Source of the DNA: a virus
Virus record (IMG/VR): IMGVR_UViG_3300020437_000014
Location: 1 to 43,949 of that record
Strand: one strand, 5' to 3'
Length of the DNA stretch: 43,949 bases
Both the position numbers and the translations under genes were made by a program. Under the pieces are notes generated by a model that was given only the letters and a program-made list of their open reading frames with translations, searched no databases and was not told where the DNA came from. Positions 738 to 19,709 of this stretch are shown here, piece by piece. Numbering within the stretch: the first letter of the stretch is position 1; each line of letters begins with the position of its first letter.

Positions 738-953
738 TCAATCAATATATATGGGCATATCTGGAAGCACTACTGATCCAACAGTAGATTCAGTAACTCC
801 ACTTGTAATATCCCGAAGTTCTTGTCTATAAATTTTTATCAGTTCAACATAAGTTTCATTCTTAAGTTCTTTAGTATCTGCAAGAAACATCCAATCGGTT
901 TCTGCTAATTTAGCGTTTCTTGCAGATCTTAGTGCGGATAAAGAGTTGTACAT
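738..953 (-). CDS. Small tail-fibre-assembly-chaperone-like protein
   Basis: A 71-residue protein from the ATG at 951-953 (MYNSLSALRSARNAKLAETD). Its core follows the pattern R..RN.KLA.TDW......D.......Y...YRQELRDI, which is typical of small phage tail-fibre assembly chaperones (Phage_tail_APC/DUF4376-like). The product of 9402-9683 shows the same pattern, so the two are likely paralogues, each directly downstream of a propeller-like fibre gene. An alternative GTG start at 1019 would add 22 residues and overlap the preceding gene by 25 nt; the ATG is preferred because the conserved core begins just after it, but no strong ribosome binding site supports either. It lacks the WP-containing tail seen in its paralogue and ends VVLPDMPIYID. 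Function is inferred from family resemblance. Confidence 0.72.
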   Translation of the reverse strand: MYNSLSALRSARNAKLAETDWMFLADTKELKNETYVELIKIYRQELRDITSGVTESTVGSVVLPDMPIYID

Positions 954-994
954 TTTTTTGATGTATATATGGTGGATAAATGATATGTATAAAT

Positions 995-2722: not shown

Positions 2723-2762
2723 CTTCTCTGCGGGGGTAAATAACTTTTTTAATATCCTCTTC

Positions 2763-2770
2763 TATTTAGA
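2763..2770 (-). promoter_or_regulatory. Late-promoter-like octamer TCTAAATA
   Basis: TCTAAATA on the minus strand, 41 nt upstream of the ATG at 2722 and immediately downstream of an intrinsic terminator hairpin. The arrangement suggests that transcription stops and restarts here. Confidence 0.55.
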
Positions 2771-2806
2771 GAAAAAGAACCCCTCACGATAAGAATGTGA
2801 GGGGGT
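2771..2806 (-). terminator. Intrinsic terminator (minus strand)
   Basis: An 8-bp GC-rich stem (arms at 2780-2787 and 2797-2804; CCCCTCAC paired with GTGAGGGG) with a 9-nt loop is followed on the minus strand by TTCTTTTTC. It lies just after the stop of the gene at 2829-3089 and would end transcription of the giant-adhesin operon. Confidence 0.78.
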
Positions 2807-2828: not shown

Positions 2829-3089
2829 TCATGCAAGCATTGATTGTGCTTGCGTTTGTGTCATACCTGTGTTCATCAGAGCACTTATTGCCTTTGATTT
2901 CATCGAATCATAAGACTCAACTGGATAGTATGTTCCGTCACCAAGATCGTTGTAACCGACGGGCTCATAAGAAGGTTGAACGGATAATTCGTAGATTCCC
3001 AATTGTGGGATTGCTCCCAATGATCCATATTTACGTGTTAATTCTTCTGTTGTAATTATTCTATTTTCTGACTTGAAATAGTACTTCAT
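2829..3089 (-). CDS. Small IITTEEL-motif protein, paralogue of 11888-12073
   Basis: An 86-residue protein of unknown function. The first part (MKYYFKSENRIITTEELTRK, then YG...IPQLGIYEL) is clearly related to the 61-residue product of 11888-12073 (MMKYYHQPENRIITTEELIR). Each gene sits directly behind a giant SQVWS-module adhesin gene. This copy has an extra C-terminal segment (SKAISALMNTGMTQTQAQSM) that looks like a short helical tail. Its start codon overlaps the upstream stop by one base (TGATG), so translation is probably coupled to the adhesin. A role as an adhesin-associated cap, chaperone or adaptor is possible but inferred only from its fixed position. Confidence 0.8.
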   Translation of the reverse strand: MKYYFKSENRIITTEELTRKYGSLGAIPQLGIYELSVQPSYEPVGYNDLGDGTYYPVESYDSMKSKAISALMNTGMTQTQAQSMLA

Positions 3090-6000
3090 CAGGCATCTCC
3101 GGTCTTGAATGTGTTATACACAGACTCGACAGAATCTGCGTTGAGTGAATCATAACGAACTTTAATTCTGTAGTAGGTATTTGGTTGAAGTGTAGGTTTG
3201 GTGGTTGTCCAAGGAGTTGCACCATCCTGAGAATCAATGGCATCAAAATCGGAATAACTATCAACTAATGTCCAAGGACCAGTTGCAGTTGTTCCAGATT
3301 CCAGAGTCCAGGTACGAGTAGAGAGAGTTGCATCAATCATACTGACCGGCGTAGTTCCGTTGTCAGTTGAAGTGAAAGTAACTTCACTTGGTGCTGGAGG
3401 TGCAGCATTAATTTGTGAACCTTCTGCGTAATATCCTGGCGCCCATGTGCCAGCAGAGCCATCCCCGAAAATCGTATTGCCTGAAATTTCCAAGATAGAT
3501 GTCAAAGAGGCACTAACTGAAGGACCGGTTACAGAATCACCGGTTGGCCATGAGGCTGCTGCAACGCTTGCTGTATTAGTCGAAGGATCAGCGTCAGCCG
3601 TCAGTGAGCCTGTTGCCTGTGCGCCCAGAAGAATTGGATTTGCTGCGATTGCTATGTAAATATAGTCCTGGCCAGATGTGTTTACTTCGGATGATCCATC
3701 AAACAATTCAAATCCAGTTGAAACAAAATCAAGGTTTGTACCAAACTCTTGTCCATCGCCGTTGGCCGCCAATCCTTTTCCAGTATTACCACTTCCACCA
3801 CCTCTTACATTATCAACAATAACCCAGTCTTTATAATCATTAGTGGATTGTTTAACCATGACCCACCCAGTTTTAAACCCAGTATCGATTGTCTGAGCAC
3901 TGCTGTTACCCGAATAAACACCACACTTAATTCCTTTAGAGGGATTATCAGCAAAGACGTAAGCAATATAGCTATGACCAGTGGTGTTTACACGATCATG
4001 CGTGCCTACAGTGAAATGAGTAGATGTTGGTTCTGTGTTATTAAATATTAAACTAAAGTTAGTACTGCGGGCAGTTCCATTAAGTTGCATGTAGTTAGTA
4101 GCTCCAAGGGATTTGTGATAACAAGTCCAATCTTCATTTCCAGAATATCTTTTTATCATTATAAATCCAGGCACACTACCAAGATTATGAGCGATCTCGC
4201 GGTTGGTGTTATTGCCATCCCAAGTTACAATATCAAAGAATCCCGGTTCTGCACGGAAGTTCCAGGAGACCATATCTGGTTCATTAGAATTTGGGTTAGT
4301 TGCTGCTACCCCAGAACCACTTGTAGGATGAACAACAGTAAAACCGCTAGTTGTCCTATCCTTTAAAACTGCTGCGCCATCAATTTCCGCCCAATTTTTA
4401 TTGGGGGTTAACCATCTATGATCGGGAGGAGTTCTCAATGTATCAAACATTATGTGATCCGAACTGCCACTTCTATTCTTAAACCAAATCATTGATTTTT
4501 GAGTATTGTCAACTCCAGTAGTGATAACCTGTTCAGCTCCACTACCTGTATGTGTAGAGTTGCCGCTATAAATTGTCGTACTAAAAGATAGTCCAGTAGA
4601 CGCTGCATTAGAGGTCACAGTCATTCCAGAAGTCAACGCACTGAGAGAGGTATTATCTTGGAACGTGAGTTCAGTTGTGTCCGGACTGCCGGCTTCACCG
4701 ATTGCCATAAAGATATGTTCCAGATTGTCCTGGTTCACATAATGAAGTCCGGTAGGCAAACTGAATCCAGTATCGTTAAATACTATATGGCCTCCGCTCC
4801 CTTCCGAATCAGGCTCATCGGCATAGAGCCATCTATCGGCTCTTTTATCGTCAAAAATAAGCCAAGGTGAAGTGTTGCCTGCATTTTTAATAAGTAAAAA
4901 CTTTGGTCTAAATCCACAATCAATCTGATTCGGTACAGCTGGAGTGCCACCACCGGTCGCATTACCTAAGTAACTACCACACTTGATTTGAGTGGATGGA
5001 TTGTCAGCAAAAACATAAGCGATGAAAGTTTTTCCATTAGAATTAGTAGATGTGTTGGCAACTGTAAACACAGTGCTTGTAGGTTCTGTATCATACCACC
5101 TATCACTAACCGTACTTTCAGCATAATTTTGATTTAATTGCAAAGATTTAGTAGCACCAAGAGATTTGTGATAAACCTGCCAGTCATCGTTATCATTAGT
5201 ACGCTTAACGAGTATCATTCCAGGCACAGTTCCCAGATTATGAGGAATTTCTCTGCTTGAAGATCCATCGCCGGTCCATGTAACTATATCAAAGAATCCT
5301 GGTGCTTTACGGAATGTCCATGAAACAATTTCTTCACCACTCAATCCCCACCAATCAGATGTTCCTTTTACGGTAAAACCGTTTGAATTAAACGAGGTTA
5401 CACCATTGTTTGCGTAATAATTCTCATCACCAGTGCCATTACTATATAAATATCGTTCAGTGCCACGCTCTGTATCGAAAAGCGCGTGATAAGTATTGCT
5501 TGTCGATTTGTTTTTAAGCCAAACCAAGCCCCCTTCACCGCTTAGATCAATTCCATTCTCGATTGTCTGCGTGCCACTATTCCCAGTATAAATTGTCGTA
5601 TTAAAAAATGAAGAGGCAGGAGTAAATGACGTGCTAACAACATTACTAGTAATAGGAGTCAGTGAGTTGCTACCAGTTGCGTCCGCCATCTCAAGCGGTG
5701 CAACCATGTTATCCAATTCAGTAGTGTCAGTGAAGGTCAGGGACGTTTCATATGGAGTACGAGAACTAATCTTTTTGTCGCCTAAATCACGAAGAATACC
5801 TGCGTCAATGACTTTTTTTCCGTCAACAATAATTCCTTCTAAAGAGGTCCAATCTGCACCGCTGGCTGCAATAGTAATTGCTGTAATAGAACCTCCCAAA
5901 GATGCGTAGGGATCACTTACAGTTGTTTTACCAAAGACGTTCCCACCATTTACTGTGAGTGTTGGTACTAATGATCCAGCACTTCCTGTAAGGGTTATAG

Positions 6001-8938
6001 AACCAGATGATGAGGATGATTGATATGTAATCAGTTCAAGTGTGCTGTTCGAAGTAAGCGGAATTGGATTATCAAGTGTAAATGTGGCTGTTGCTTGATA
6101 CAGTCCCCACATCGTGTTAGCGACAAATGGATCTCCTGCTTTACCAACATTTGCAAAGAGATCTGTTACTCCATAATTATTATTTGCTGCTGTGCCAGTA
6201 TAGGTTCCATTACTCCAAACTTGACTGTCTTCGACTGCATCAACCAGGAGTTGGCCGTCAACTTCAATTCCCAATATGTATATGTATCCAGAAGAGTAAG
6301 ATCCCGATCCATAACCCCATCTTAGAGAGGTTAATCCATTACTTAAAGTAAATGTAGCGGAACTTGGTCCATAAGCTCCACCATTATCTGCCCACTCGGA
6401 CGCTGTAAGTGGAACTCCATTGATCTCTAGGTTCTCGTTTGTACCTGTATATGTAACTCCATCTAATGAAGTATCACCATAGATTTTTAAAGTTGTAGCA
6501 TTGGCAAATGTTGTACCAAAATCCATTGACAAGTAGTTACCGTTGCCAGCTGGTCTAATTCCATGTGAAGAATAAGGACCAGGGCTACCATCGAAAGGTA
6601 CGGTTACATCGGAGTTTCCATATTGAGTATCAAGTGTCCCAACTACAAGATTACTCCAAACCTGACTTTGATTCCATGCATCAATCAGAATACTTCCGTC
6701 AACACGAATAGCTGTGATTGTTGCGCGTCTGTTTGAGTTTGGATCAATAGTAATAGAACTAATAGAACCAGAACTTCCACTAACTAAAGTTACCCATCCA
6801 GGAGAATCTGTTGTAGCCACTGGAGAATTACTATTTAAAATTATTTGTCCAGCATGTCCGGAAATATAGACCTCAACTGAATCTGAATAACTAACAGGTG
6901 TTGTTGGTTGGAAGACCATATCTTCACCAACAGATCCTGCACCTGCAAAAGTTTCTAGATCACCGTCAAAGGCAGAAGTTGCAGGCTGTCCACCATTAAA
7001 GGAATTAGAAGGTGTGGTTAGGCCACCACTCCAAACCTGACTTTGATCTGAAGTATCCCAAGTGCCGCCACTTACAGTTACAGACGGATATGTATATGTT
7101 GTTTCTGTCTCAGATAATCCTACATATCCACTTGGAGGCTCATGTGTCCATGCATTTTGACCGAAGTTTGCAGAAAAATTGAACCCTGAGCCAGCGCCAT
7201 CTTGAATAAACGGCATTATAGTCTTACCGGTTAGTCCGGTAAAGGCAGCAGTTCCAGAATTTTGAACAACACCATTTTTGTAAAAATAAAGGGCACCATT
7301 ATCCATATCTAAGGCAACACCAATAACATCGCCAGCACCATACGAACTGCCATACGACGCACTTTGATTGCTATCGTAGTATTTAGTACCGTTGTAATAA
7401 TAGTAGAACATTCCGCCAGTTCCATTATGCCAATTATTAGCTGGATATGCCTGATCACCAACACCAATCATTCCACCATCATTGGTGCAAGTAATTTCCC
7501 AGAACCATTTTCCAGAGCTTACCCCAATCGTTGCATAAATACCTCCTTCGGCAGAGGTCGTTGATCCGTCTAGATTTCCATTACTTAAAGTTGAGCTGCC
7601 AAGCAAACGATCCGGGTCCAGCGTCGCATATACAATTTCCTCTTGCGACGAAGGAGCAGAAGCGTCAATGGCTGTGATTGTAACGCCTGTCTGAACTTCA
7701 TCACCTACCGACAGTCCACTGAAGTTGGTGTTGGTAGGGAATGAAAGAATTTTATTGCCACTGGTTTGTGGCGTGCGAACACCCGTATCAACCAAGAGTT
7801 TGCCATCAACTTTAATAGCGTATAGATAAGGGAAATTCGCATTTGCACTATTCTGAATTCTAATATTTTTCAGTTCAGTAGTTGTAAATGTATGACTAGG
7901 TTGCACTTCATTTCCACTAATACCATTAGTGGTAGCATCAATGCTTTGCTGTGAAGTTTCTCCATAATTGATGTAAATTTCACCGCCCGTACCGCCAAAA
8001 TAAATGACTTCTACTTCTGAAGCAGATGGGAACTGATCTGCAAAATCTAGTTGAGTATACCCGCCCTGAGGGACAATAGTATTGTCGGGGCCGGGAGATC
8101 CAGTGACAGTATTATTAAAAACGGCCGGCCAGCTATAACCGGGGTATGGAGTTCCTGTAACTGTATTGCTGCTCCAAACCTGACTATCATCGACTGCATC
8201 AATCAGGAATTTACCGTCAACTTTAATATACATTAAAGTCGTTGAGTTAGACGCATTAAGAACTAACGAAGTGAGGGTTCCAGATCCTGATGCAATTACT
8301 GAGTCTGAGCTATTAGCAACAGCGATAGCGGCAGCGCCATTTACGGACGCAGTTCCACCAGCTGAGGCCATGTAGATAGAGATTGACTCACTATATGAAA
8401 TAGGTGTACTTGGTGTGAATGTTATAGATGATCCGGTAACAGAAACCTGAGCATATGTATAAGGAGCGCCTTCATTTCCAACTCCATCAAAGGTGGAAGT
8501 AGGTCCATACAACCACCCACTAGAAGACTGAAGGTCATTACTCCATACCTGGCTTTCTTGCCAAGCAATTTCATCAACAACACTTAGAATCTCGTCAGTA
8601 TCTTTGACAATCGTGCCTGCTTCTCCTACTGCAGTGATAACACTAGATAGAGGTTCATACTGATCAAACTCAGTAATACCAGCACCATTCAAAGGAGTCA
8701 GAACTGCAACAGGCGGACGAATCAATCCGGTAGTGGCACTAAGATCTTCCTTCAAAGCAGATCCAGTGATTGAATAGTTTGTTGAAATACCTGCCGATGT
8801 TCTTTGCACCAGCAGCAAATCATCATCTGCTAAGTTTGCCATTAGATTCTCCTGTGATACTTGATAGTTTGTTGATATTCCTGATTGTGAGTCCGTTCTT
8901 TGGACAAGAAAACTGTCGCCGTTCTGAAGTGTGGTCAT
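3089..8938 (-). CDS. Giant modular tail adhesin (1949 aa), second cassette copy
   Basis: Probably a virion-surface adhesin or fibre. Residues 1-65 hold two short DxxLLVQRT repeats. Residues 66-125 (NGAGITEFDQYEPLSSVITA) are nearly the same as in the paralogue at 12070-19341. Five beta-sandwich-like modules follow (about 128-249, 250-383, 632-755, 757-902, 903-1047), each opening with SQVWS and closing with a VDGK(L/F)LIDA-like strand. A SPRY-like domain lies at about 450-605 (GKWFWEITC, DVIGVALDMDNG, YFYKNG). Two further repeats with GFFDIVTW...REI(P/A)HNLG...DW..YHKSLGAT (about 1110-1310 and 1455-1700) follow, then an FN3-like C-terminus (TWTLESG...TGPWTLVD...NTYYRIKV). The start codon is 6 nt after the upstream stop. 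No catalytic motif is visible. Receptor or envelope binding is inferred. Confidence 0.88.
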   Translation of the reverse strand: MTTLQNGDSFLVQRTDSQSGISTNYQVSQENLMANLADDDLLLVQRTSAGISTNYSITGSALKEDLSATTGLIRPPVAVLTPLNGAGITEFDQYEPLSSVITAVGEAGTIVKDTDEILSVVDEIAWQESQVWSNDLQSSSGWLYGPTSTFDGVGNEGAPYTYAQVSVTGSSITFTPSTPISYSESISIYMASAGGTASVNGAAAIAVANSSDSVIASGSGTLTSLVLNASNSTTLMYIKVDGKFLIDAVDDSQVWSSNTVTGTPYPGYSWPAVFNNTVTGSPGPDNTIVPQGGYTQLDFADQFPSASEVEVIYFGGTGGEIYINYGETSQQSIDATTNGISGNEVQPSHTFTTTELKNIRIQNSANANFPYLYAIKVDGKLLVDTGVRTPQTSGNKILSFPTNTNFSGLSVGDEVQTGVTITAIDASAPSSQEEIVYATLDPDRLLGSSTLSNGNLDGSTTSAEGGIYATIGVSSGKWFWEITCTNDGGMIGVGDQAYPANNWHNGTGGMFYYYYNGTKYYDSNQSASYGSSYGAGDVIGVALDMDNGALYFYKNGVVQNSGTAAFTGLTGKTIMPFIQDGAGSGFNFSANFGQNAWTHEPPSGYVGLSETETTYTYPSVTVSGGTWDTSDQSQVWSGGLTTPSNSFNGGQPATSAFDGDLETFAGAGSVGEDMVFQPTTPVSYSDSVEVYISGHAGQIILNSNSPVATTDSPGWVTLVSGSSGSISSITIDPNSNRRATITAIRVDGSILIDAWNQSQVWSNLVVGTLDTQYGNSDVTVPFDGSPGPYSSHGIRPAGNGNYLSMDFGTTFANATTLKIYGDTSLDGVTYTGTNENLEINGVPLTASEWADNGGAYGPSSATFTLSNGLTSLRWGYGSGSYSSGYIYILGIEVDGQLLVDAVEDSQVWSNGTYTGTAANNNYGVTDLFANVGKAGDPFVANTMWGLYQATATFTLDNPIPLTSNSTLELITYQSSSSSGSITLTGSAGSLVPTLTVNGGNVFGKTTVSDPYASLGGSITAITIAASGADWTSLEGIIVDGKKVIDAGILRDLGDKKISSRTPYETSLTFTDTTELDNMVAPLEMADATGSNSLTPITSNVVSTSFTPASSFFNTTIYTGNSGTQTIENGIDLSGEGGLVWLKNKSTSNTYHALFDTERGTERYLYSNGTGDENYYANNGVTSFNSNGFTVKGTSDWWGLSGEEIVSWTFRKAPGFFDIVTWTGDGSSSREIPHNLGTVPGMILVKRTNDNDDWQVYHKSLGATKSLQLNQNYAESTVSDRWYDTEPTSTVFTVANTSTNSNGKTFIAYVFADNPSTQIKCGSYLGNATGGGTPAVPNQIDCGFRPKFLLIKNAGNTSPWLIFDDKRADRWLYADEPDSEGSGGHIVFNDTGFSLPTGLHYVNQDNLEHIFMAIGEAGSPDTTELTFQDNTSLSALTSGMTVTSNAASTGLSFSTTIYSGNSTHTGSGAEQVITTGVDNTQKSMIWFKNRSGSSDHIMFDTLRTPPDHRWLTPNKNWAEIDGAAVLKDRTTSGFTVVHPTSGSGVAATNPNSNEPDMVSWNFRAEPGFFDIVTWDGNNTNREIAHNLGSVPGFIMIKRYSGNEDWTCYHKSLGATNYMQLNGTARSTNFSLIFNNTEPTSTHFTVGTHDRVNTTGHSYIAYVFADNPSKGIKCGVYSGNSSAQTIDTGFKTGWVMVKQSTNDYKDWVIVDNVRGGGSGNTGKGLAANGDGQEFGTNLDFVSTGFELFDGSSEVNTSGQDYIYIAIAANPILLGAQATGSLTADADPSTNTASVAAASWPTGDSVTGPSVSASLTSILEISGNTIFGDGSAGTWAPGYYAEGSQINAAPPAPSEVTFTSTDNGTTPVSMIDATLSTRTWTLESGTTATGPWTLVDSYSDFDAIDSQDGATPWTTTKPTLQPNTYYRIKVRYDSLNADSVESVYNTFKTGDA
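8612..8689. repeat. 78-bp perfect repeat, copy 1 (partner 19057-19134)
   Basis: This stretch inside the N-terminal region of the 1949-residue adhesin is identical over 78 bp to 19057-19134 in the paralogous 2423-residue adhesin. It begins CGTGCCTGCTTCTCCTACTG on the plus strand. Perfect identity including third codon positions, amid diverged flanks, suggests recent recombination or gene conversion. Confidence 0.9.
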
Positions 8939-8944
8939 TAGATA

Positions 8945-9283
8945 TTACTCTCCTGCTGAAGGAAGCGATGCCAATGTAGATAAATCTATTTCGCTGCCGC
9001 CAGCGGAAAGAGATGGACTTGCTTCGACCCAATACTTTGCATTGGTGTCTGGATCAACATAAAGAACATATAATGTTGCATCATCTGCAGAACTATTCCA
9101 CCAAAGAGCACCTTCTTGCACTGTTGCTGGTGCTGGTGGAGTTGTTCCTACAGTAATTGATGCATCACCACCACCAGTACCACCAGTTACTTTCCACGCA
9201 CCATTGATATAAGTATATGTTACGCCGGTTGTAGTATTAGTCCAGGGTGATTGACTTGGATCTGGGAAATTAATGACGGCCAT
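8945..9283 (-). CDS. Adaptor-like structural protein with INFPDPSQSPW and EGALWWNSS modules
   Basis: A 112-residue protein starting at the ATG at 9281-9283, chosen because AAGGAGGT lies at proper spacing upstream; a TTG two codons earlier is too close to that site. The N-terminus (MAVINFPDPSQSPWTNTTTG, then TYTYINGAWKV) is shared with the fibre at 9715-11769. The second half (EGALWWNSSADDATLYVLY, then DPDTNAKYWVEASPS) is shared with 19338-19709 and with the C-terminus of 20449-21960. It thus fuses two widely reused modules. It directly precedes the giant adhesin gene, just as 19338-19709 precedes the other one. It may be an adaptor that docks the adhesin on the virion; this is inferred from position and module sharing. 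Confidence 0.82.
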   Translation of the reverse strand: MAVINFPDPSQSPWTNTTTGVTYTYINGAWKVTGGTGGGDASITVGTTPPAPATVQEGALWWNSSADDATLYVLYVDPDTNAKYWVEASPSLSAGGSEIDLSTLASLPSAGE

Positions 9284-9326
9284 TTTCAATTACCTCCTTT
9301 GTATTGTGATTGAGCATTATATGACC
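9281..9326 (-). repeat. Duplicated 5' leader, copy 1 (partner 11767-11812)
   Basis: The 46 bp ending in the ATG, including the strong AAGGAGGT ribosome binding site, match 11767-11812 with a single mismatch, although the genes they lead are different overall. Farther upstream both have a TCTAAATA octamer. A duplicated translation-initiation leader is seen directly; its age and purpose are inferred. Confidence 0.88.
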
Positions 9327-9353
9327 CGTTGTTGTAATTGGACATTCTGTTAG

Positions 9354-9361
9354 TATTTAGA
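9354..9361 (-). promoter_or_regulatory. Late-promoter-like octamer TCTAAATA
   Basis: TCTAAATA on the minus strand, about 71 nt upstream of the ATG at 9283, in a gap of about 118 bp. The same octamer, within TCTAAATACTAA, precedes the duplicated leader at 11853. Confidence 0.5.
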
Positions 9362-9401
9362 AATTGACTATAGTATAGAGAAGTAATTGAGTCAAATTAA
9401 A

Positions 9402-9683
9402 TCATGCACTTGGCTCTGTTGGCCAAGTTACATCATGCGGGAATCCACCCTGAGAAGGCAGATCTCTAAGTTGCTGTCTATAGGTCGCCCAGGCAGCAGT
9501 ATTCCAAGGAGCATCTGCCACCATACGATGGTCGGTGGCAGCTAACTTGGAGTTTCTTTCAGATCTTACATCACTACCAACTTTGATTGTGTAAGCAGCA
9601 TCTACAGTCAGAGAGTTATCCTCTACTCGTAGATCGTAAGATTCGAACAGTTTTTTAGCAGATAGATAGGTTGCGTAGTCCAT
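9402..9683 (-). CDS. Tail-fibre-assembly-chaperone-like protein
   Basis: A 93-residue protein. The C-terminal half shows the pattern RSERNSKLAATDHRMVAD, then W..YRQQLRDLPSQGGFP and V.WP..PS, typical of small phage tail-fibre assembly chaperones (Phage_tail_APC/DUF4376-like). The N-terminal half (about 1-45) is predicted to be short helices or strands without a known motif. It lies 31 nt downstream of the propeller-like fibre gene 9715-11769 and is a paralogue of 738-953. The product probably helps that fibre fold or trimerise; it would be expected to be absent from, or minor in, the finished virion. Chaperone function is from family resemblance and order. Confidence 0.78.
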   Translation of the reverse strand: MDYATYLSAKKLFESYDLRVEDNSLTVDAAYTIKVGSDVRSERNSKLAATDHRMVADAPWNTAAWATYRQQLRDLPSQGGFPHDVTWPTEPSA

Positions 9684-9714: not shown

Positions 9715-11769
9715 TCAAGCAGGAGTAATAACGTTAGATGGTCCAAATTCGCTGCTGCCAATAGAGTTGGTGGCTTGTGCAGAGACCTTAAAGGTTGTTC
9801 CAGCAGGAAGTTCAACATCAGGTGCATTGCCTGATGGGAAAGTAGCTGGGAAGGTAAGGGTTTTACTGGTATTAGGACCAATGCTTACGTAACCAGGGTC
9901 AGAACTAACAGTGCTCGTAACTGATCCGGTCGCATCAATAACAAGATAACGACTGGAAACTGAAGTACCAGTTGGATGAACAGCTTCTATTACGTCACCA
10001 GCTTGATAAACGTAGTCAGATTTAACCGCAATGCTTGTGCCTGAGATAGAAGTGATTACTCCTCGCTCAGATGAAATTGATGAACCCGCAGGTCGAATCG
10101 AATCTCCTACATTGAAATCAGCATAGTCGCCACCAGTGCCAGACAAAGTGACAGTTTGTTCATTGTAAGGGTAGGAATATTCATGGAATCTGTTACTATC
10201 ATAACCCCACCATATCAATTTGTTACCAGCAACGAACACCATCTGCGGTCTCTGATTATCAGTGTATGAAGTATCATGTGCTAAAACCCATGTAGCACCG
10301 TTGTTGTTGGTGGTGTGTACTTGCAATCTTCTGCCACTATATCTGTAACCATAGGCTTCAATCTTCCCTGATTCGGGGTTATATTCGAGACCGATATTAT
10401 AGTAATCTGAATCGGTACTAATAGCACCCCCAGAATACCAATTGTAGCCATCTGATGATTTATATAAATTACCATCAACGTTAATCCAGTAAATACCATT
10501 CAAATATTTAATATACTCGGCGTTGCTATTGTTATTATCTAACGCACTAGAGCCACCAAGTTCTTGAATACCAGAATCACTGTTTCTAGCAAATACATTC
10601 GTGCGAACTGTGCCAGAATTGTTGTTGCGGCGAGTTACAACTATTCTATCAGGACCAACGGCATACATTCCACTAGATTGAGATGTATTACTGGTCTCCC
10701 ACCTCTCACCCAGACTCGTCGATCCCATACTAGTGCCTTTACAGTACTGTAGCGAAGTGCCACTCATACGGAAAGTCCACCAGACTTGATGTTCAGAATC
10801 CCAAAAAGGTACTGACATTTCATGCCCTCCATTATTAAACGCTTGCCAAGGGCCACTACCGTCAGCCGGTCTTCTCCAAGAAGGCATTACAGTAGAACAA
10901 TCGCGTCTGAATCTATGAGCAAAGATATAATTCTCGTCGGGACTTTCAAAGTAAGTAGCTGCGTCGATATAACCCGAACTGTAGCTGTTGGTATGATCTG
11001 AAGTACCCCAGGCATAGCTCTGGGACGGCGTACCGGGGTCAGCGTTTATCCAAAACTGATATTGGTTGGAACTAAATCCTCTTATGAAGTACCAAACACC
11101 ATTTCCCGTTGGATCGGTTCCATAAACTTTTGCAGAACCATAATTAGTATAGCTTACGGAGTTGTATGACTTATTATCATTTGGGAATGTAGTAATTGCA
11201 TTGGAAGCAATTGACTCAGTACTTGGATAAACTGAAAATTCAGCAGTTACCTCACCTTTAAGTCCTTTTTGACTGAATGGTTCACCTTCACGCAGCATTG
11301 TAATATCAACATCAAATGTCTGACTGGTAAAACGATCTCCAGTAGTATCATTCTCTGTCAAGGTTACATTACTGATGACGGGAGAAAGCTCACTAGGAGT
11401 TGAAGATCCAACTTCTACCCACTCTGTACCATTCCAGCTTTTAAGGACTGGATCATCGCCAGAAGTATCAGTCCAGAAATCACATATACCAGGATTTGAT
11501 GGTGCCGATGCTCCCATTACAGCAGAAGGAACAGTATTTCCTTTCTTCTGAACATCACCATCGACATTCAGTCCGCCACCACCAGAGATGACTTGTTGTG
11601 TTCCACCGTCATTTTTCTTTAAATATGCTAAATCTGCATCAGCTTGTTTAAGGAATGTTTCCTCAGAACTTAATGCCTTCCATACACCATTTGAGTAGGT
11701 ATAAGTAATACCTGTAGATTCATTGGTCCATGGTGATTGACTAGGATCGGGAAAATTAATAGCGGACAT
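9715..11769 (-). CDS. Tail fibre with Asp-box (BNR) propeller and FN3-like C-terminus
   Basis: A 684-residue protein starting at the ATG at 11767-11769, preceded by AAGGAGGT; a TTG two codons upstream lies too near the site. N-terminus: MSAINFPDPSQSPWTNESTG and TYTYSNGVWKAL (virion-attachment module shared with 8945-9283), then a GDFWTDTS-like module (ICDFWTDTSGDDPV...WNGTEWVEV) at about 115-135. The central region is rich in Trp, Tyr, Asn and Ser. It contains two BNR/Asp-box motifs, SSDGYNW and TTNNNGATW (compare S-x-D-x-G-x-T-W), supporting a beta-propeller of the sialidase or photosystem-assembly-factor kind. The last ~90 residues end VSAQATNSIGSSEFGPSN, an FN3-like strand pair. No sialidase catalytic set was identified, so sugar or surface binding is likelier than hydrolysis. 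The following gene is its presumed chaperone. Confidence 0.83.
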   Translation of the reverse strand: MSAINFPDPSQSPWTNESTGITYTYSNGVWKALSSEETFLKQADADLAYLKKNDGGTQQVISGGGGLNVDGDVQKKGNTVPSAVMGASAPSNPGICDFWTDTSGDDPVLKSWNGTEWVEVGSSTPSELSPVISNVTLTENDTTGDRFTSQTFDVDITMLREGEPFSQKGLKGEVTAEFSVYPSTESIASNAITTFPNDNKSYNSVSYTNYGSAKVYGTDPTGNGVWYFIRGFSSNQYQFWINADPGTPSQSYAWGTSDHTNSYSSGYIDAATYFESPDENYIFAHRFRRDCSTVMPSWRRPADGSGPWQAFNNGGHEMSVPFWDSEHQVWWTFRMSGTSLQYCKGTSMGSTSLGERWETSNTSQSSGMYAVGPDRIVVTRRNNNSGTVRTNVFARNSDSGIQELGGSSALDNNNSNAEYIKYLNGIYWINVDGNLYKSSDGYNWYSGGAISTDSDYYNIGLEYNPESGKIEAYGYRYSGRRLQVHTTNNNGATWVLAHDTSYTDNQRPQMVFVAGNKLIWWGYDSNRFHEYSYPYNEQTVTLSGTGGDYADFNVGDSIRPAGSSISSERGVITSISGTSIAVKSDYVYQAGDVIEAVHPTGTSVSSRYLVIDATGSVTSTVSSDPGYVSIGPNTSKTLTFPATFPSGNAPDVELPAGTTFKVSAQATNSIGSSEFGPSNVITPA

Positions 11770-11812
11770 TTTCAATTACCTCCTTTGTATTGTGACTGAG
11801 CATTATATGACC
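11767..11812 (-). repeat. Duplicated 5' leader, copy 2 (partner 9281-9326)
   Basis: 45 of 46 positions agree with 9281-9326, covering the start codon, the AAGGAGGT site and sequence upstream of it. The coding sequence just inside the gene is also highly similar (INFPDPSQSPW), so the duplicated block spans the gene start. Confidence 0.88.
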
Positions 11813-11852
11813 GATCATTGTGTGCGAAATTTTGTTTGAACATTTCTTTTAG

Positions 11853-11860
11853 TATTTAGA
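11853..11860 (-). promoter_or_regulatory. Late-promoter-like octamer TCTAAATA
   Basis: TCTAAATA followed by CTAA on the minus strand, about 84 nt upstream of the ATG at 11769, in a 118-bp gap. It is equivalent to the site at 9354. Confidence 0.5.
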
Positions 11861-11887
11861 AATTGGGTAAAGTTGGTAATTAATATA

Positions 11888-12073
11888 TCAGATGCTCTGG
11901 ATTGGAGCATATTTTCCATCAGGCATCAGTGCAAATGCAACTGGTGTAAACTCTGGTTGGGAAGTAAGTTCATAAGTCCCAAGTCCGGGTACGGGTGTTG
12001 GAGACCCATACTTGCGAATTAATTCTTCTGTTGTGATGATTCTATTTTCTGGTTGATGGTAGTACTTCATCAT
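11888..12073 (-). CDS. Small IITTEEL-motif protein, paralogue of 2829-3089
   Basis: A 61-residue protein (MMKYYHQPENRIITTEELIR, then KYGSPTPVPGLGTYEL and a proline-rich end). It is the shorter paralogue of the 86-residue product at 2829-3089 and lacks that protein's C-terminal helical tail. It starts with two adjacent ATG codons that overlap the stop of the giant adhesin gene by 4 nt, implying coupled translation. Function is unknown. Occurrence behind both giant adhesins suggests it acts with them. Confidence 0.78.
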   Translation of the reverse strand: MMKYYHQPENRIITTEELIRKYGSPTPVPGLGTYELTSQPEFTPVAFALMPDGKYAPIQSI

Positions 12074-15000
12074 TCGTCTCCGGTTTTAAAGGTGTTGTAT
12101 ACAGATTCGACAGAATCTGCATTGGTGGAATTGTACTGAACTTTAATTCTGTAGTAGGTATTTGGTTGAAGTGTGGGTTTGTTCTCTGTCCAAGGTGTAG
12201 CACCTGTTTGTGTGTTCAGAACTCCAAAGTCACTATAAGTATCAACCAATGTCCAAGGACCTGTTGCAGATGCTCCAGATTCCAATGTCCAGGTACGACT
12301 TGCGAGAGTCGCATCCACACCACTGAATACAGGAGTGCCTTGATTCTGAGATGTGAAAGTAATTTCACTTGGTCCTGGAGGTGCAGCATTAATTTGTGAA
12401 CCCTCGATGGAGAGTCCTGTACGCCAAGGACCTGTTGCACCGTTCAGATACATTGTCGTACCATTAATTTCAAGGATATCTGTTGCAATCGCCGCAAGTG
12501 GATCAAGTGCAACCTGTGTTTCACCAGATGTATCAACTTCAGGTGTTGTGTTTTCTGGATGTTCAGCGAAGGCCATGTAGATCATATTCGCATTAGTAGC
12601 ATTGAAGAATTGATTATACCTAATTTTAAATCCGTTATTGAGAAACTCTACTGGTCTATCATCTGGTTGTTCTGCATAGTTACCATTAGGGAATAATGGT
12701 TTTGTATTTGAACGTTCATTGTCATAAATGTACCAGTCATCGCCACCAGTGTTCTTAATCATTAAAAATGCTGGCTTAAAGCCGGTATATACGAACGGGC
12801 CATCAGTAGAACCGTTGCCGGTGTAGCTGCCCATGGCTGAGTAGCCTTCCACTGGGGCGAAACAGTAAGCGACTCCATTATGAGGGCTACCGCCGTTATT
12901 AGAACGGTATGTAAAGACAGAGGATGTTGGATCACCTACGAATATATTACCAGTAGCTCTTGTCCCTGATGCTGCGGTCTGATTTAAATATAAGTTATGT
13001 CCAGAAGTTAAATCGGAATGATAAACAGCCCACTGAGAAGTTAAAGTTGAATCGCGTGCAATAATAAATTTAGGAGTATCATTCAATCCGTGAGCCAAAG
13101 TATAATCAGTGTAGAAAGTGTAGTCTGTAAAAGTTACTATTGAGAACCCAGCCTCCGGATTGGCTCGGACTTGTGATCCGAGTGATGGGACGTTTGGCAT
13201 AGAAATAGTAGGATCAATTAAGGCTTTGCCGTCTACAAAAATACGAATTAGGTATGTACCTGCTGTGTTGACTTTAATGCTTGCTATATCACCAGTAAAA
13301 GGTATTGAATGATAATGATAGCCAGACCCGGTTGAAGTACTTGTTATTTCATCGCTTAGTCCCTCATTGATCGTAAAACTCGTAGCTGTGTGCATGTAGA
13401 ACTTAACTTCAGAGTTACAAGCAATAGGATTAGTTAATGTCCACTTACCCGTACCATCAAGCAAGTACATTGAACCATAATCGTTGTAAAGTTCACCGTC
13501 ATTAAAAACACCAACCCAGTTGTATATATTGCCACCTTGACTGAAATTACCAGTAAAGGTTCCATAAGTACTCCAAGTCTGGCTTTGATCATAAGCAGAG
13601 CTGTTCAGACCACCAACAGCAATTGTTTCTGTGGTGTCACCTGCATCCCAGGCCCAGGCAACATAACTATGAGATGCTTGGTTGACAGATGTATGTGAAC
13701 CAAGTGTAAATCCGTCACTGTTAAATGAAGAAAGAGAAGTTGGTTGGTCTGATTCACTTTGAGTAAGGTTACTAAAAAGTCGTTTGCCAGGACCCCTTAC
13801 TGTGTCAATCAAAACATGGTCATTTGCCGGACTGCTTGTCTTGATCCATACGAGATCGGGTGAAAAGGCCATGCCATCGATATTTTGTGGTCCACCAGTT
13901 CCTGAATAAGTCACAGTATCAAAGTACTTCGAGCCGTCTTTGATTGTTGGTTCAGTCATGTTAGCCGTGGTGAGAGCCTTGTAACCACTTGGTGCATCAT
14001 AGACAAAAGGACGTTGGCCGAAGTTTAAATTTCCGCTGAAAGATCCACTACCAACGGCCGGGAAGTAGTCCCTTCCATCATTAAATCCAGTAAAAGCAAC
14101 ACCCTGAGATACACCATTTTTATAATAAGAAAGTTCTCCAGTATCACTATCAAAAGCAACACCAATAACATCGCCGCTGGTATATCCCGATCCATAAGGT
14201 ATAATAGTACCATTAGAATTATAATTTGTATATATTCCGCCAGAAGTGTTATTCATGTTGGAATAATATGTCCACGAGTTAGTATCATATCCAAGATACT
14301 GATTACTAGGTACCCCATTAAGGGCAATACCAATGCCAGCATTACTGCCAACCATTTCAACTTCAAAATACCATTTTCCAGTCTTACCAAAAGGCATAGT
14401 AGCAATCATTACTCCAGTCTGATGACTATAAGTCAAATTACCATTTGATAATACTGGACTGTTCTGTCCACCGAATAATGGGTTCAAAGTTGCATAGTTA
14501 GAAGTGGGAGTGTCTGCAAGAGAGTCAATATCTCCACCATCTGCAGGACCAGCAACCATGTAGTAAATGCGTTGATCGGCTCCTGAATTACTGGGGAAAA
14601 GTCTTCCATAACCATCGTAACCACTAGGGAATGTAAATACTGCTGTTCCTGTAGAGTTTGCAGGTATTGTCCATTGGTTTCCAGATACAGTTCCTACTGA
14701 CTGGCCACCAAAAGTACCACTGTTGCTAACTGTTCCGCTTACCCAAGGCTGGACTAAGAAATACCTATCAGATGAGCTGCTGTTTTCAATTTTGAACAAA
14801 AGGGATGTGCCACTGTAGTTAAAACCTACAAAATCAGAATTAGCAACACCATAGGTTGAAGGATCGCCGTCAAAGACTTTTTCTGCCTGTGAAGCGATAA
14901 TACCACTACCATATGTTGAATTATAAGTAGCGGTAGATGTGGTTGCAGTGAGGTTATTAACGGTCCAGTTGTTTCCGGTAATAGTTCCATTTGCAGTTCC

Positions 15001-18000
15001 TGTAATACTTACAGTTACATTTCCACCACCAGATCCTGCAATCTGCACCCATCGACTAAAACTATGGCTGGGAGTTCCGGTATTGGTAATTCTGACTGTT
15101 GTCAGATTGTTTTCAAGGAAGTTGTAACCACTATTTGTATCACTTGTTGAGAGATAGATGTCATTTGCACCTCCAGTCTTAGTGATTGTAATGTCATAAG
15201 CACCCAAAGCAGCAGTATCAATATTCAGAGTATTAGTATTAGCATTTGTACTGTGTGTATCACCGCTTGAAACCGTACCACTGCTAAATCCGCTAGCCCA
15301 AGGACCAGAATTGCCAGTAGTTACTGTCCCGTTCGCATCGTATCCTAATGTGGATGTGCTGCTTGAATCACTGAAGTCTAAGTGGAAGCCATTTGTGCCA
15401 TAAGCAGTAGCTCCATCAACTAATACAACACCATCAATTTCAATGGCAGCAATATTGCTTGAAGAACCTGCATTTGTTGGGCCAATAGACAGCGATGTTA
15501 GTGTACCTGTAAAACTGACATTATTCCATCCAGCAGAAACGGAGGCATTGGTTTGACTTCCGTTGACGGAAATTTTTTGTCCTCGGTCTACACCAATATA
15601 CACACGTACACCAGTGTTTACTGTAATTGGTGATGGCGGAGTAAAAACAGCAGTTGCAGTGGTAGATCCGTCTCCAGAACCCAATGATGTAAATGTAGAA
15701 AGGTCACCGTCAAACGCATTTGTCATGTCCGTGGAACCAGTTGTTCCAGTCACTGCGTTGTAGCTAGAACTTGACCAGGTCGTACCATTGTTAAGGCTAG
15801 GAATAGATGCTGCCTTAGCTTGCCAGACATTATTGTTGTCAACCTTACCAAATGCAGTCGGTGCAAGAGCTTGGCCGTCAATAAAATATACGTCAGCTAA
15901 ATATGCATCTAAGGTGTAATTTGTAACGGAATCAGTTTGCCTTCCAATATAGTGAGTGCGGGATCCTTGATTCCATTGACCATCTTGGTTTTGGGCTGGA
16001 AATCCTCCGTTTACTGTCCTTTGTTCGCCATTGACATACACTTTCACCCTATCGACATCGTTAGCCTGGGTCGTGTCGTAAGCAATTACGATATGAACCC
16101 AATCTGCGTAATCACCGAACGAAGCGTCGACGTTTAAATTAGCTCCATTACTTAATTGATAGTCTTCAATGTATAACTTGTTATCGTAAAAATATACATA
16201 AAGTCCATTCGTATTGCTTTCTAGATTGGCAAACAAGTTATGATAACCTGTGGCACTAATTTTTACCCAAGATGACCAAGTCCAGGTCTTACGGTTTCCT
16301 GCAGACGAGAATTCTTTTGAAAGAGACGCCACATCAGCTGAGTTAAATCTCAGAGACTTCGAGATTTCATAGGTACCACCCGTGCCATCAGCGCCATACC
16401 AACTTCCACCATCAACAGTGATACTAGGAGCAGCTTCATCAACTGAAACGACTTGAACTCCAGTCTGAACTTCATCACCAGGTTGGAAGTATGCAAGATT
16501 GGTGTCACTTGCAAGAGTAAGTGTGTTGCCACTAACGTTCGCAATGGTGTCGCTAACGGGAGTTACAACATCACCGTTTGCATCCGTCATCTCAATAGGT
16601 CCAACCATATTAGCCAGTTGAGTGTCATCAGTGAAGGTCAGACTCTTTTCATAGGGGATAGAAGATGACAGACTACTGTCGCCAAAATCACGAATGCCTG
16701 GTTCAATCAGACGTTTACCGTCAACTTCTACACCATAAAGGTACAAGCCAGACGAATTATTGGTACCATCAGAATTTCCAATAGTAATACTACTTACATC
16801 TCCTGTAAATGAGTAGAAATTTTCAACAGAGTTGTAATTGGCGCTATTAAATGGAGCATTGGCTTCATCATTAACTCTCCAAATAACATTACTATTTGTC
16901 ATTCCACCATACACTTTGACTCCACTAGTTGCAGGCAGTGGGGGATCAAATGTAAGGGTTACTACGACAGGGCTAGCATTAATGTTGGCATGTGCATAGT
17001 TGCTGAGATTGCCGTTAAATAAGTTACTTAGATCTGTCCAATTTCCACTATTCCCCGTGGTGACAGCATTGTTACTCCAAACTTGACTATCTTCGATTGC
17101 ATCAACCAAGAGTTTACCATCTGCTTTAACAGCACCGATACTTGGAGCATGTTGACTACCTGTTCCATTTGATACTCTAATTCTGGTTAGTGGAGAAACC
17201 AATTGACTGGTAAAGTCGAAGAAGGGAATTGTTCCGGCAGAAATTTCAGCGTCAGTGCTGTTATGTCCGGTCCAATTACTAGAATCTATTCTTAATGTTC
17301 CTCCAGCATGAATAAACTCAAAGAACCAGGGTCCTATTACTCCACTAGTATTTGCGGCTTGGTTTGCAACCATAATTTCAATCTTATCAGTCCACTCAAT
17401 GTTTCCATTCCACTGAATAACATTGGGATTACCCGCAAAAGCACCAGGTCCAATATTTGTGAAGTCTCCATTGAATGCACTTACTCTTCTACCATCTAAG
17501 TATAAAGAACCAGTCTCTGCAGACCAATTACTCCAAACCTGACTTTGGTTTGTAGTATCCCAAGTACCACCACTAACAGTAATAGTCGGAGGTGTTGCAT
17601 CAGCTTCAATGGCTATGATTTGCGTGCCAAGTGCTGAGTAACCAGTTGGTGGAGTATGTACAAAGTCAGTTGCACCAAAGTTAGCAGTGAGTTTTGTTGT
17701 TGTTGTGCCTTGATAATGTTGATTAGCACCAAAACCAGTGACAAAATATTCACCAGTTAATCCATGAGTATAAGCGCCTTGTAAGGCACCATTTTTATAA
17801 AATTTGACATTAGTACTATCTATGGCTATGCCAAGGACATCGCCCGCAGTGTAAGATGCAACACTACCAAGGGTTTGGTTGCCGGGATATTTAATGATTG
17901 CACCGTTTTCTCTATAAGTAACATATGATCCTAATCCCGAAATGATCGATGTGCTTGCATCACCAACAGCAAAACCCATCAGTGAGTTACCAGAAACAGA

Positions 18001-19341
18001 ATCAACTGTAAGTTCGGTATAATTATTATATCCTGAGGCAGGAACTGTTGATAAACCTTCAACATAGAAATTTGAAGTTGCTGATATTGATAAATTTCCA
18101 TTCGATATAGTACCCGAATTCGTGTGGGAAATATTGAATTCCGAATTCTGAATCACATCACCAACCGACAATCTGCTGAAGTTAGTGTTGGTGGGGAATG
18201 AGAGGACTTTATTTCCTGTTGTTGGACGAGTGCGAATGCCCTCATCAATCAATAGTTTGCCGTCAACTTCAACAGCCGTCAGATATGGTCCGTATTGCGA
18301 TGCGTTACATATTAACGAAATACTAGACAAAGATCCACCAATATCAGCAGCCGGAATAGTTATAGGCTGTCCATACCCAGTGCTCGCGGGTAAGAAGCTA
18401 CTACTTCCATTAACTTTCATCCCATAAGTCGAACTATCGGTATCATTAAGGCCGTAAAGGACTACAGACTCGTTTACAGTTATGGGTGAAGGGGGCGTCC
18501 AAGTCATGGTTTGGCTTGGGTTGGGAAATGCATGTCCATTAGGGCTGGTGCTTATAACACCATCAAATGCTTTACTCCAATCTCTAACACCATAATGAGT
18601 GCCAGTACCAAAACTACTCCAAACCTGACTGTCATCAATTGCGTCAATCAGGAGTTTCCCATTGACTTCGACCGCGTATAAACCAGTATAGTCGACATTA
18701 TTATTTACTATTCCAATACTTGTAATTTCTGTTTCTCCTGTGATTGTGTGCCATCCAGCAGAAGTGCCGACTTGAGATGTATAGTCGTTGCCATTAACAA
18801 AGAAACTGGATTGAGATCCGGCTTTTATAGCATAAACTCTTAAACCACTTGTTAATGGTATAGAACCTCCAGGTAAGGTTATAGTCAGGGGGTTCTCAAT
18901 AGGTGCATAAACTATGTTTGAAAGATCGCCATTAAAAGCATTCGTAACTGGATATCCAGAATAACCATCCGAACTTGATCCCCCACTCCAAACCTGACTT
19001 TCATTCCATGCGCTTTCATCAGCAACACTCTGAATATCGTCAGTGTCTTTGGCAAGCGTGCCTGCTTCTCCTACTGCAGTGATAACACTAGATAGAGGTT
19101 CATACTGATCAAACTCAGTAATACCAGCACCATTGATGGGTGTAAGGACTTCAACGGGAGGGACAATCAAACCGTTGGGTCCAGTACTTATATACTGTGC
19201 TTCTACTTTGTATTGAACCCCACCGCGTTCTACGAGTAGGATATCGTCGTCGTTTAGTGTGCTCATTTGATCGTAGGTAATTTGGTGAAGGTTTCCGTTG
19301 CGTTCAACAAGAAGTAGGTCAGAGTCATTTATGGTACTCAT
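12070..19341 (-). CDS. Giant modular tail adhesin (2423 aa), first cassette copy
   Basis: The largest gene in the window and a paralogue of 3089-8938. Residues 1-50 hold two DxDLLLVER repeats; 55-115 match the paralogue. SQVWS...VDGKLLID modules occupy about 114-234, 237-362, 599-748 and 751-880; related modules occur later, from about 1198 and again near the C-terminal third (QSQTWS ... IFVDGKALIDP). SPRY-like domains lie at about 410-575 (AGDVLGIAIDS, FYKNGALQG) and in the second half (GKWYFEVEM, GDVIGVAFDSDTG, YYKNGV). A LamG/concanavalin-like domain lies at about 990-1165 (KSLRFNSADV, TWTWSSWVK, YIGRQTDS, LADVYFIDGQ), a form frequent in marine phage fibres. The FN3-like C-terminus matches the paralogue closely. 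The ATG overlaps the upstream stop (ATGA). Adhesin function is inferred. Confidence 0.88.
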   Translation of the reverse strand: MSTINDSDLLLVERNGNLHQITYDQMSTLNDDDILLVERGGVQYKVEAQYISTGPNGLIVPPVEVLTPINGAGITEFDQYEPLSSVITAVGEAGTLAKDTDDIQSVADESAWNESQVWSGGSSSDGYSGYPVTNAFNGDLSNIVYAPIENPLTITLPGGSIPLTSGLRVYAIKAGSQSSFFVNGNDYTSQVGTSAGWHTITGETEITSIGIVNNNVDYTGLYAVEVNGKLLIDAIDDSQVWSSFGTGTHYGVRDWSKAFDGVISTSPNGHAFPNPSQTMTWTPPSPITVNESVVLYGLNDTDSSTYGMKVNGSSSFLPASTGYGQPITIPAADIGGSLSSISLICNASQYGPYLTAVEVDGKLLIDEGIRTRPTTGNKVLSFPTNTNFSRLSVGDVIQNSEFNISHTNSGTISNGNLSISATSNFYVEGLSTVPASGYNNYTELTVDSVSGNSLMGFAVGDASTSIISGLGSYVTYRENGAIIKYPGNQTLGSVASYTAGDVLGIAIDSTNVKFYKNGALQGAYTHGLTGEYFVTGFGANQHYQGTTTTKLTANFGATDFVHTPPTGYSALGTQIIAIEADATPPTITVSGGTWDTTNQSQVWSNWSAETGSLYLDGRRVSAFNGDFTNIGPGAFAGNPNVIQWNGNIEWTDKIEIMVANQAANTSGVIGPWFFEFIHAGGTLRIDSSNWTGHNSTDAEISAGTIPFFDFTSQLVSPLTRIRVSNGTGSQHAPSIGAVKADGKLLVDAIEDSQVWSNNAVTTGNSGNWTDLSNLFNGNLSNYAHANINASPVVVTLTFDPPLPATSGVKVYGGMTNSNVIWRVNDEANAPFNSANYNSVENFYSFTGDVSSITIGNSDGTNNSSGLYLYGVEVDGKRLIEPGIRDFGDSSLSSSIPYEKSLTFTDDTQLANMVGPIEMTDANGDVVTPVSDTIANVSGNTLTLASDTNLAYFQPGDEVQTGVQVVSVDEAAPSITVDGGSWYGADGTGGTYEISKSLRFNSADVASLSKEFSSAGNRKTWTWSSWVKISATGYHNLFANLESNTNGLYVYFYDNKLYIEDYQLSNGANLNVDASFGDYADWVHIVIAYDTTQANDVDRVKVYVNGEQRTVNGGFPAQNQDGQWNQGSRTHYIGRQTDSVTNYTLDAYLADVYFIDGQALAPTAFGKVDNNNVWQAKAASIPSLNNGTTWSSSSYNAVTGTTGSTDMTNAFDGDLSTFTSLGSGDGSTTATAVFTPPSPITVNTGVRVYIGVDRGQKISVNGSQTNASVSAGWNNVSFTGTLTSLSIGPTNAGSSSNIAAIEIDGVVLVDGATAYGTNGFHLDFSDSSSTSTLGYDANGTVTTGNSGPWASGFSSGTVSSGDTHSTNANTNTLNIDTAALGAYDITITKTGGANDIYLSTSDTNSGYNFLENNLTTVRITNTGTPSHSFSRWVQIAGSGGGNVTVSITGTANGTITGNNWTVNNLTATTSTATYNSTYGSGIIASQAEKVFDGDPSTYGVANSDFVGFNYSGTSLLFKIENSSSSDRYFLVQPWVSGTVSNSGTFGGQSVGTVSGNQWTIPANSTGTAVFTFPSGYDGYGRLFPSNSGADQRIYYMVAGPADGGDIDSLADTPTSNYATLNPLFGGQNSPVLSNGNLTYSHQTGVMIATMPFGKTGKWYFEVEMVGSNAGIGIALNGVPSNQYLGYDTNSWTYYSNMNNTSGGIYTNYNSNGTIIPYGSGYTSGDVIGVAFDSDTGELSYYKNGVSQGVAFTGFNDGRDYFPAVGSGSFSGNLNFGQRPFVYDAPSGYKALTTANMTEPTIKDGSKYFDTVTYSGTGGPQNIDGMAFSPDLVWIKTSSPANDHVLIDTVRGPGKRLFSNLTQSESDQPTSLSSFNSDGFTLGSHTSVNQASHSYVAWAWDAGDTTETIAVGGLNSSAYDQSQTWSTYGTFTGNFSQGGNIYNWVGVFNDGELYNDYGSMYLLDGTGKWTLTNPIACNSEVKFYMHTATSFTINEGLSDEITSTSTGSGYHYHSIPFTGDIASIKVNTAGTYLIRIFVDGKALIDPTISMPNVPSLGSQVRANPEAGFSIVTFTDYTFYTDYTLAHGLNDTPKFIIARDSTLTSQWAVYHSDLTSGHNLYLNQTAASGTRATGNIFVGDPTSSVFTYRSNNGGSPHNGVAYCFAPVEGYSAMGSYTGNGSTDGPFVYTGFKPAFLMIKNTGGDDWYIYDNERSNTKPLFPNGNYAEQPDDRPVEFLNNGFKIRYNQFFNATNANMIYMAFAEHPENTTPEVDTSGETQVALDPLAAIATDILEINGTTMYLNGATGPWRTGLSIEGSQINAAPPGPSEITFTSQNQGTPVFSGVDATLASRTWTLESGASATGPWTLVDTYSDFGVLNTQTGATPWTENKPTLQPNTYYRIKVQYNSTNADSVESVYNTFKTGDE
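19057..19134. repeat. 78-bp perfect repeat, copy 2 (partner 8612-8689)
   Basis: Identical over 78 bp to 8612-8689 in the paralogous adhesin. It encodes the GITEFDQYEPLSSVITAVGE-type segment in both proteins. Confidence 0.9.
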
Positions 19342-19709
19342 GGCAGTGCTGGTAAGGAGGACAGACTAAGTGCAGCATTAGCAATTTTTGTATCAACTTC
19401 AGTAGATGTATTATAAGCACTCAAATCAACTGTAGAAGTAGCGGGACTTGCCTCGATCCACTGTTTTGCTGCAGTATCTGGATCAGCATAAAGAACATAT
19501 AAACTTGCGTCGTCTGAGGAACTATTCCACCAGAGAGCACCTTCTTCTAAAGATGTCGTATCTGGTGCAGATTCTCCAACAGTGATAGATGCACTACCAC
19601 TAATAGGTGATCCATCTGGTAATTGGAAAGAATTTGCAGTAACAGTTCCAGTTACATTGATATTTTGACTATTATCAATAACTGTTTGTCCCTGGATTTT
19701 AATTGCCAT
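19338..19709 (-). CDS. Adaptor-like structural protein with EGALWWNSS module
   Basis: A 123-residue protein (MAIKIQGQTVIDNSQNINVT, then VTANSFQLPDGSPISG), a start common among phage fibre proteins that carry short beta-strand repeats. Its second half (SITVGESAPDTTSLEEGALW, then WNSSSDDASLYVLYADPDT and a DTKIANAALSLSSLPALP end) is nearly the same as the C-terminus of 20449-21960 and related to 8945-9283. It precedes the 2423-residue adhesin with a 4-nt ATGA overlap, so the two are translated together. A TATAAATA promoter lies 34 nt upstream. It may be a small docking or adaptor subunit for the adhesin, inferred from position. Confidence 0.82.
   Translation of the reverse strand: MAIKIQGQTVIDNSQNINVTGTVTANSFQLPDGSPISGSASITVGESAPDTTSLEEGALWWNSSSDDASLYVLYADPDTAAKQWIEASPATSTVDLSAYNTSTEVDTKIANAALSLSSLPALP

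Follow-up and report, generated by a model that had tools for sequence, protein, structure and literature searches.

A repeated adhesin cassette in a T4-like cyanophage, read as a probable array of receptor-binding slots with exchangeable cargo

A metagenomic IMG/VR fragment of 43.9 kb (IMGVR_UViG_3300020437_000014; hereafter the window, meaning the whole stretch of DNA analysed) carries the same order of five genes twice in a row: an adaptor, a giant adhesin, a small protein, a fibre and an assembly-chaperone-like protein, each called A or B according to its copy. How did two such sets come to lie side by side? The initial annotation proposed tandem duplication by stepwise amplification in place. 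We compared the two sets with each other and with loci fetched from IMG/VR, using profile scans; the comparison relied on IMG/VR contigs because searches of annotated phages with the small protein, the adaptor, the FN3-like domain of the adhesin and fibre A gave no matches. The results showed that the pattern is real and that the duplication story is mostly wrong. With a probability of roughly 0.74, the locus is instead a colinear row of receptor-binding slots, and recombination at conserved ends exchanges the cargo they carry.

The two copies and their transcription units

All ten open reading frames (ORFs) lie on the minus strand at the coordinates listed below. Pairwise blastp revealed similarity far above chance between the adaptors (62.5% over 64 amino acids (aa), E=4e-23), the adhesins (33% over 950 aa, E=4e-82; 42% over the last 420 aa, E=3e-68), the small proteins (58% over 59 aa, E=1e-22) and the chaperones (41% over 46 aa, E=4e-5), which bears out the kinship claimed for members 1, 2, 3 and 5. 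The fibres, placed fourth in each copy, had been paired by composition and position: their place directly before a chaperone gene stood, but their kinship in sequence did not, as neither blastp nor profile comparison (hhalign probability 0.4%) matched fibre A to fibre B. Both chaperones matched PF16778 (Phage_tail_APC; 73.6 and 38.4 bits, curated cut-off 26.6), and genes of this kind directly follow a fibre gene in both window copies and in three further loci (L018, L025 and L035). SPRY and DUF7483 domains were found in both adhesins; their FN3-like C-terminus was assigned by eye, with no Pfam match there. At the DNA level, self-comparison returned the adaptor and otherwise only short collinear blocks, of 202 nucleotides (nt; 81%), 190 nt (86%), 102 nt (80%) and 93 nt (74%). 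A third adaptor domain, which blastp matched at 72% over 92 aa, is fused to the upstream baseplate-type protein (20449-21960) as its C-terminus. The N-terminus of adaptor B and its 5' untranslated region (9192-9374) resemble the corresponding parts of fibre A (11678-11873) rather than of adaptor A, which means that the parallel between the copies is incomplete.

The trees of the small proteins and of the FN3-like domains did not group the window copies as sisters. The small proteins fall into a 60-aa class, an 84-88-aa class and a shorter outlying pair, and the window carries one of each main class. Small protein A was sister to the small protein of G002, a 207-kb relative (support 96/92), and the FN3-like domain of adhesin A was sister to that of another contig, L005 (support 99/96). 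The approximately unbiased (AU) test rejected sister window copies for the small protein (p=2e-7) and for the adhesin C-terminal FN3-like domain (p=0.009). Small protein B stood outside the A-class clade, nearest by path to long-class proteins of other phages, its exact place being poorly supported. With the AU rejections, unrelated fibres and copies that are not parallel, amplification in place was not supported.

The features of the locus are as follows.

19744-19750, minus: late promoter ATAAATA of slot 1 (adaptor A); motif and leader also precede the orthologous G002 adaptor
19338-19709, minus: slot 1 adaptor A, EGALWWNSS domain, 123 aa; 62.5% to adaptor B
12070-19341, minus: adhesin A, 2423 aa, with DxDLLLVxR N-terminal anchor, SPRY, DUF7483 and C-terminal FN3-like domain
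19198-19437, minus: recombination tract of 240 nt over the adaptor A/adhesin A junction; 92% to G002 slot 2
11888-12073, minus: small protein A, 61 aa, proposed free-standing Tfa-type chaperone N-domain
11853-11860, minus: late promoter TCTAAATA of the fibre A unit
9715-11769, minus: fibre A, 684 aa, beta-propeller hint; homologous to the L018 and L025 fibres over most of its length
9402-9683, minus: chaperone A, 93 aa, PF16778 (E=1.1e-20)
9354-9361, minus: late promoter TCTAAATA of slot 2 (adaptor B)
8945-9283, minus: slot 2 adaptor B, 112 aa, N-terminus common to fibre A
3089-8938, minus: adhesin B, 1949 aa, framework as in adhesin A with SPRY and DUF7483
2829-3089, minus: small protein B, 86 aa, long class
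2763-2770, minus: late promoter TCTAAATA of the fibre B unit
995-2722, minus: fibre B, 575 aa; N-terminal 84 aa kept in the G002 gene after its small protein
738-953, minus: chaperone B, 71 aa, PF16778 (E=1.1e-9)
729-736, minus: late promoter TCTAAATA of the third fibre
3-689, minus: third fibre, truncated where the contig ends; a 2077-aa G002 fibre in the same position matches it at 62% over 238 aa
20452-20727, minus: third adaptor-domain copy, C-terminus of the baseplate-type protein 20449-21960

The third fibre gene does begin at 689, as annotated, and runs off the contig. Every one of the eight matches to TCTAAATA or ATAAATA on the minus strand falls in the 100 nt before a gene start, and such regions cover 5.5% of strand positions. 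Within the locus a late motif stands before only five genes (adaptor A, fibre A, adaptor B, fibre B and the third fibre), and the minus-strand motif scan detected none inside any triad (adaptor, giant adhesin, small protein) or fibre-chaperone pair. The published cyanomyovirus late promoter is NATAAATA (PMC2984593), of which TCTAAATA is a one-base variant; a NATAAATA-like motif stands upstream of each unit, as in T4-type late units. The adaptor, adhesin and small-protein ORFs abut or overlap (the adaptor A/adhesin A overlap is ATGA). From the placement of the motifs and the packing of the ORFs, each five-gene cassette is better read as a triad plus a doublet of fibre and PF16778 chaperone, with separate predicted late promoters. 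The five genes had been presented as one fixed unit. The promoters split it, two other phages order the genes differently, and the profile scan of G002 yielded no PF16778 match.

Slots and cargo in related phages

The G002 contig has the anchors in the same order as the window: adaptor A, fibre A N-terminus, adaptor B, adhesin, small protein, fibre B N-terminus and third fibre. Between the two phages, similarity reached 73% over 93 aa for adaptor A, 78% over 100 aa for adaptor B in slot 2, 68% over 127 aa for the fibre A N-terminus and 64% for the fibre B N-terminus. Promoters and leaders were slot-specific and alike in both, and a leader-sequence scan of IMG/VR matched G002 alone. The leader common to fibre A and adaptor B was considered as a recent event and rejected, because G002 has it too; the sharing is therefore old. 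The cargo differed: slot 1 of G002 holds a different fibre of 957 aa, and slot 2 an adhesin whose ends agree with those of the window adhesins but whose middle differs, followed by an A-class small protein.

In window slot 1, the 240 nt that run from the end of the adaptor into the adhesin were 92% identical to slot 2 of G002, and silent-site divergence (pS) over the first 47 adhesin codons was 0.03, against a background of 0.61-0.77 in six genes. Against the same background, small gene A gave a pS of 0.22 to its G002 counterpart (88% identical). Within the window, adhesins A and B had a pS of 0.23-0.28 at codons 53-117 and about 0.4-0.7 elsewhere. We interpret these low-pS tracts as marks of recombination at conserved ends; they support the annotation's idea that receptor sets are swapped. 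Its reading of the locus as repeated sets of host-contact genes is also supported.

Two further observations concern G002. Its slot-1 fibre (L006 2079-4952) has a weak N-terminal match, below cut-off, to the major tropism determinant N-terminal domain PF18454. About ten genes are inserted between its baseplate-type protein and adaptor A, inside the fibre locus (L008 643-9121), and some of them resemble, by eye, sulfotransferase-like or oxygenase-like small enzymes.

Beyond G002, an adhesin framework of N-terminal DxDLLLVxR anchor and FN3-like C-terminus, directly followed by the small protein, was found in many other IMG/VR contigs. About a dozen other IMG/VR phage contigs carried the triad, each in a single copy, and two copies were seen only in the window; the small gene was likewise present once per record in the other contigs. 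Within one framework, the middle module of the adhesin varied among phages: it was DUF7483, a BNR propeller, laminin-G or a segment without a recognised domain. In every locus measured apart from L018 and L025, the small gene overlaps the adhesin stop or lies directly against it; in L018, L025 and also L048 it sits after the chaperone gene. The order in L018 and L025 is adhesin(s), fibre A homologue, PF16778 chaperone and small gene, with fibre homologues at 49% over 624 aa and 41% over 661 aa and chaperones at 53-57% to chaperone A. The gene types therefore do travel together, though in different order. In L023 and L033 an internal virion protein lies beside the small gene, as in podoviruses, and the phages that carry the triad probably include podoviruses. 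A strict pairing of the short small protein with a PF16778 chaperone was considered and dropped, since the short form occurs in G002 and G003, where nothing matched PF16778. A further adhesin that shares the N- and C-terminal parts of the framework is present in L006 (18216-20177) and in L024 (2565-4559), and no small protein was found behind it.

An exchangeable slot array and its alternatives

Under the slot-array reading, the hypervariable tail-fibre locus of a T4-like cyanophage would be a row of slots, each provided with a late promoter, a leader and a conserved anchor or adaptor. The cargo of slots 1 and 2 would be a single large receptor-binding protein, whose N-terminal anchor and FN3-like C-terminus are conserved and whose lectin-like middle varies, together with the small protein, which would act as a dedicated folding helper and correspond to the half of a Tfa-type chaperone that binds the fibre. 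Behind each slot comes a separate pair of fibre and chaperone genes, also with its own predicted promoter. The two slots would be old, their order being kept in the related phage. Their cargos would stem from different lineages, with homologous recombination at the conserved ends replacing or patching them, both from phage to phage and, probably, from slot to slot. The products would be assembled into the virion with chaperone help and bind receptors, and a change of cargo might affect host range.

A scenario in which one five-gene unit was duplicated in tandem in place and the copies then diverged would account for a gene order repeated twice in a row and for paralogy in four of the five members, and the short DNA blocks at 80-86% and the single-copy association of all five gene types in L025 also fit it. 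We nevertheless consider it quite unlikely, given that small protein A and the FN3-like domain of adhesin A have their sisters in other phages, that the fibres are unrelated, that the leader and N-terminus of adaptor B match fibre A, and that G002 already has both adaptor slots, filled with other cargo. Some weight, well short of likelihood, goes to an older event, in which the adaptor-adhesin-small triad was duplicated in a common ancestor of the window phage and G002 and later gene conversion and cargo replacement blurred the trees: both adaptors occupy matching places in G002, and the low-pS tract between adhesins A and B points to conversion within the genome or from a shared source, but small protein B falls outside the A-class clade, closest by path to the long class, in a poorly supported position. 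Joining of the fibre loci of two phages by faulty assembly is conceivable for a metagenomic fragment of this size but very improbable, as the independently assembled G002 contig spans the same slots and both neighbours with colinear order, promoters and anchors.

Several points weigh against the slot array. For the short adhesin N-terminal segment, the sister pair was not rejected (AU p=0.37). Much the same picture would arise from an ancient duplication in which one copy was later overwritten. The window, being a metagenomic fragment, could conceivably be chimeric, though G002 has the same order. The adhesin C-terminus, with a pS of 0.73 to G002, was not recently shared; exchange is therefore patchy and does not involve one whole block. 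Two phages cannot reveal donor or direction, and a third phage could have supplied the shared tract to both. The small protein had no sequence link to known chaperones in Pfam or PHROG with 12 members, nor any related PDB chain. The exchange model is directly testable in related phages, because silent-site divergence can be compared separately at each end of a cargo.

The slot array can be set beside known systems. According to work cited in PMC3797505, adhesin modules of T-even phages are swapped at conserved ends by homologous recombination; going by that source, the likeness lies in conserved ends that flank exchanged, hypervariable receptor-binding segments. The window differs in having whole operons with their own late promoters and two parallel adaptor slots, and in apparent exchange between non-equivalent slots and among unlike phages. 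Pfam and PHROG scans of the window proteins gave no sign of gp37/gp38 kinship. What is new are the unnamed small protein family and exchange at the level of operons and across slots; swapping at conserved ends is already known from T-even phages. Consecutive pairs of fibre and tail-fibre-assembly genes occur in Lentibacter phage ICBM2 (NC_048671; gp49-50, gp51-52), whose chaperones are longer (134-141 aa) and which has no giant adhesin or adaptor.

Cyanomyoviruses seem to be without many recognisable T4 tail-fibre genes, and which genes supply the function is an open question (PMC2984593). The locus offers concrete candidates for it and shows how such viruses may reshuffle their host-binding proteins. 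A layout of promoter, anchor, exchangeable cargo and helper would explain how these proteins change without breaking assembly.

The small protein, fibre A and the setting of the locus

The AlphaFold2 model of the small protein (confidence score pLDDT 90.6) has five strands and one helix in 61 aa. Its top Foldseek match in BFVD was a 'phage tail assembly chaperone' (probability 0.97, with a weak E=0.07), and the structure had no match in PDB; weak PDB profile matches to topoisomerase V were judged to be chance. In the chaperone Pam3 gp25, the N-terminal domain is a fibre-binding beta-sandwich of 55 residues with 2+3 strands and a short helix, and the C-terminal domain is helical and trimerising (PMC9608196). 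The model may resemble the former in its strands and helix, the fifth protein of each copy matches PF16778, and the small gene lies immediately downstream of its putative client, as expected of a Tfa-type chaperone gene, with L018, L025 and L048 as exceptions. The window differs from Tfa and Pam3 gp25 in that the two kinds of domain are separate genes behind different clients and that the small protein is without sequence similarity to the Tfa N-domain. As a structural lead and not a statement of membership, the small protein is probably a free-standing N-domain, the client-binding half of a Tfa/Pam3-gp25-type fibre chaperone. A wider proposal is tentative: it may found a family of free-standing client-binding chaperone halves, mobile with the adhesin among T4-like and other marine phages, which would be split from the separate PF16778 half, mix and match with it or replace it, and serve a slot array of exchangeable cargo. 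For fibre A the structure prediction was poor (pLDDT 47) and its Foldseek matches were mostly beta-propellers, a hint of a beta-propeller for this fibre only.

The structural-gene neighbours in the window showed homology and synteny with Synechococcus phages S-SM2 and Bellamy, as in Kyanoviridae; Bellamy gp27 matched a window protein at 60% over 1985 aa, and the hub, tail and tRNA neighbours were also matched. From this gene content, the source of the window is assigned to a T4-like cyanophage (Kyanoviridae). The ten cassette genes lie on the minus strand, 3' of the baseplate-type protein 20449-21960, and variable fibre genes of S-SM2 and Bellamy occupy the equivalent place. The cassettes of these two phages belong to other gene families, and their locus showed neither the triad nor an adaptor or small protein like those of the window. 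Bellamy resembles the window further in having its own repeated small-gene/fibre cassettes (paralogues gp32/gp37/gp43 and gp50/gp53); in this cultured phage, L002 25839-45001 contains repeated small-gene/glycine-rich-fibre cassettes gp32/37/43, gp33/38/41/44 and gp50/53. Genes for tRNA-Thr(TGT) and tRNA-Leu(TAA) lie at 30011-30083 and 30437-30522 of the window, just upstream of a 1966-aa fibre gene, and both occupy the equivalent position in S-SM2 and Bellamy.

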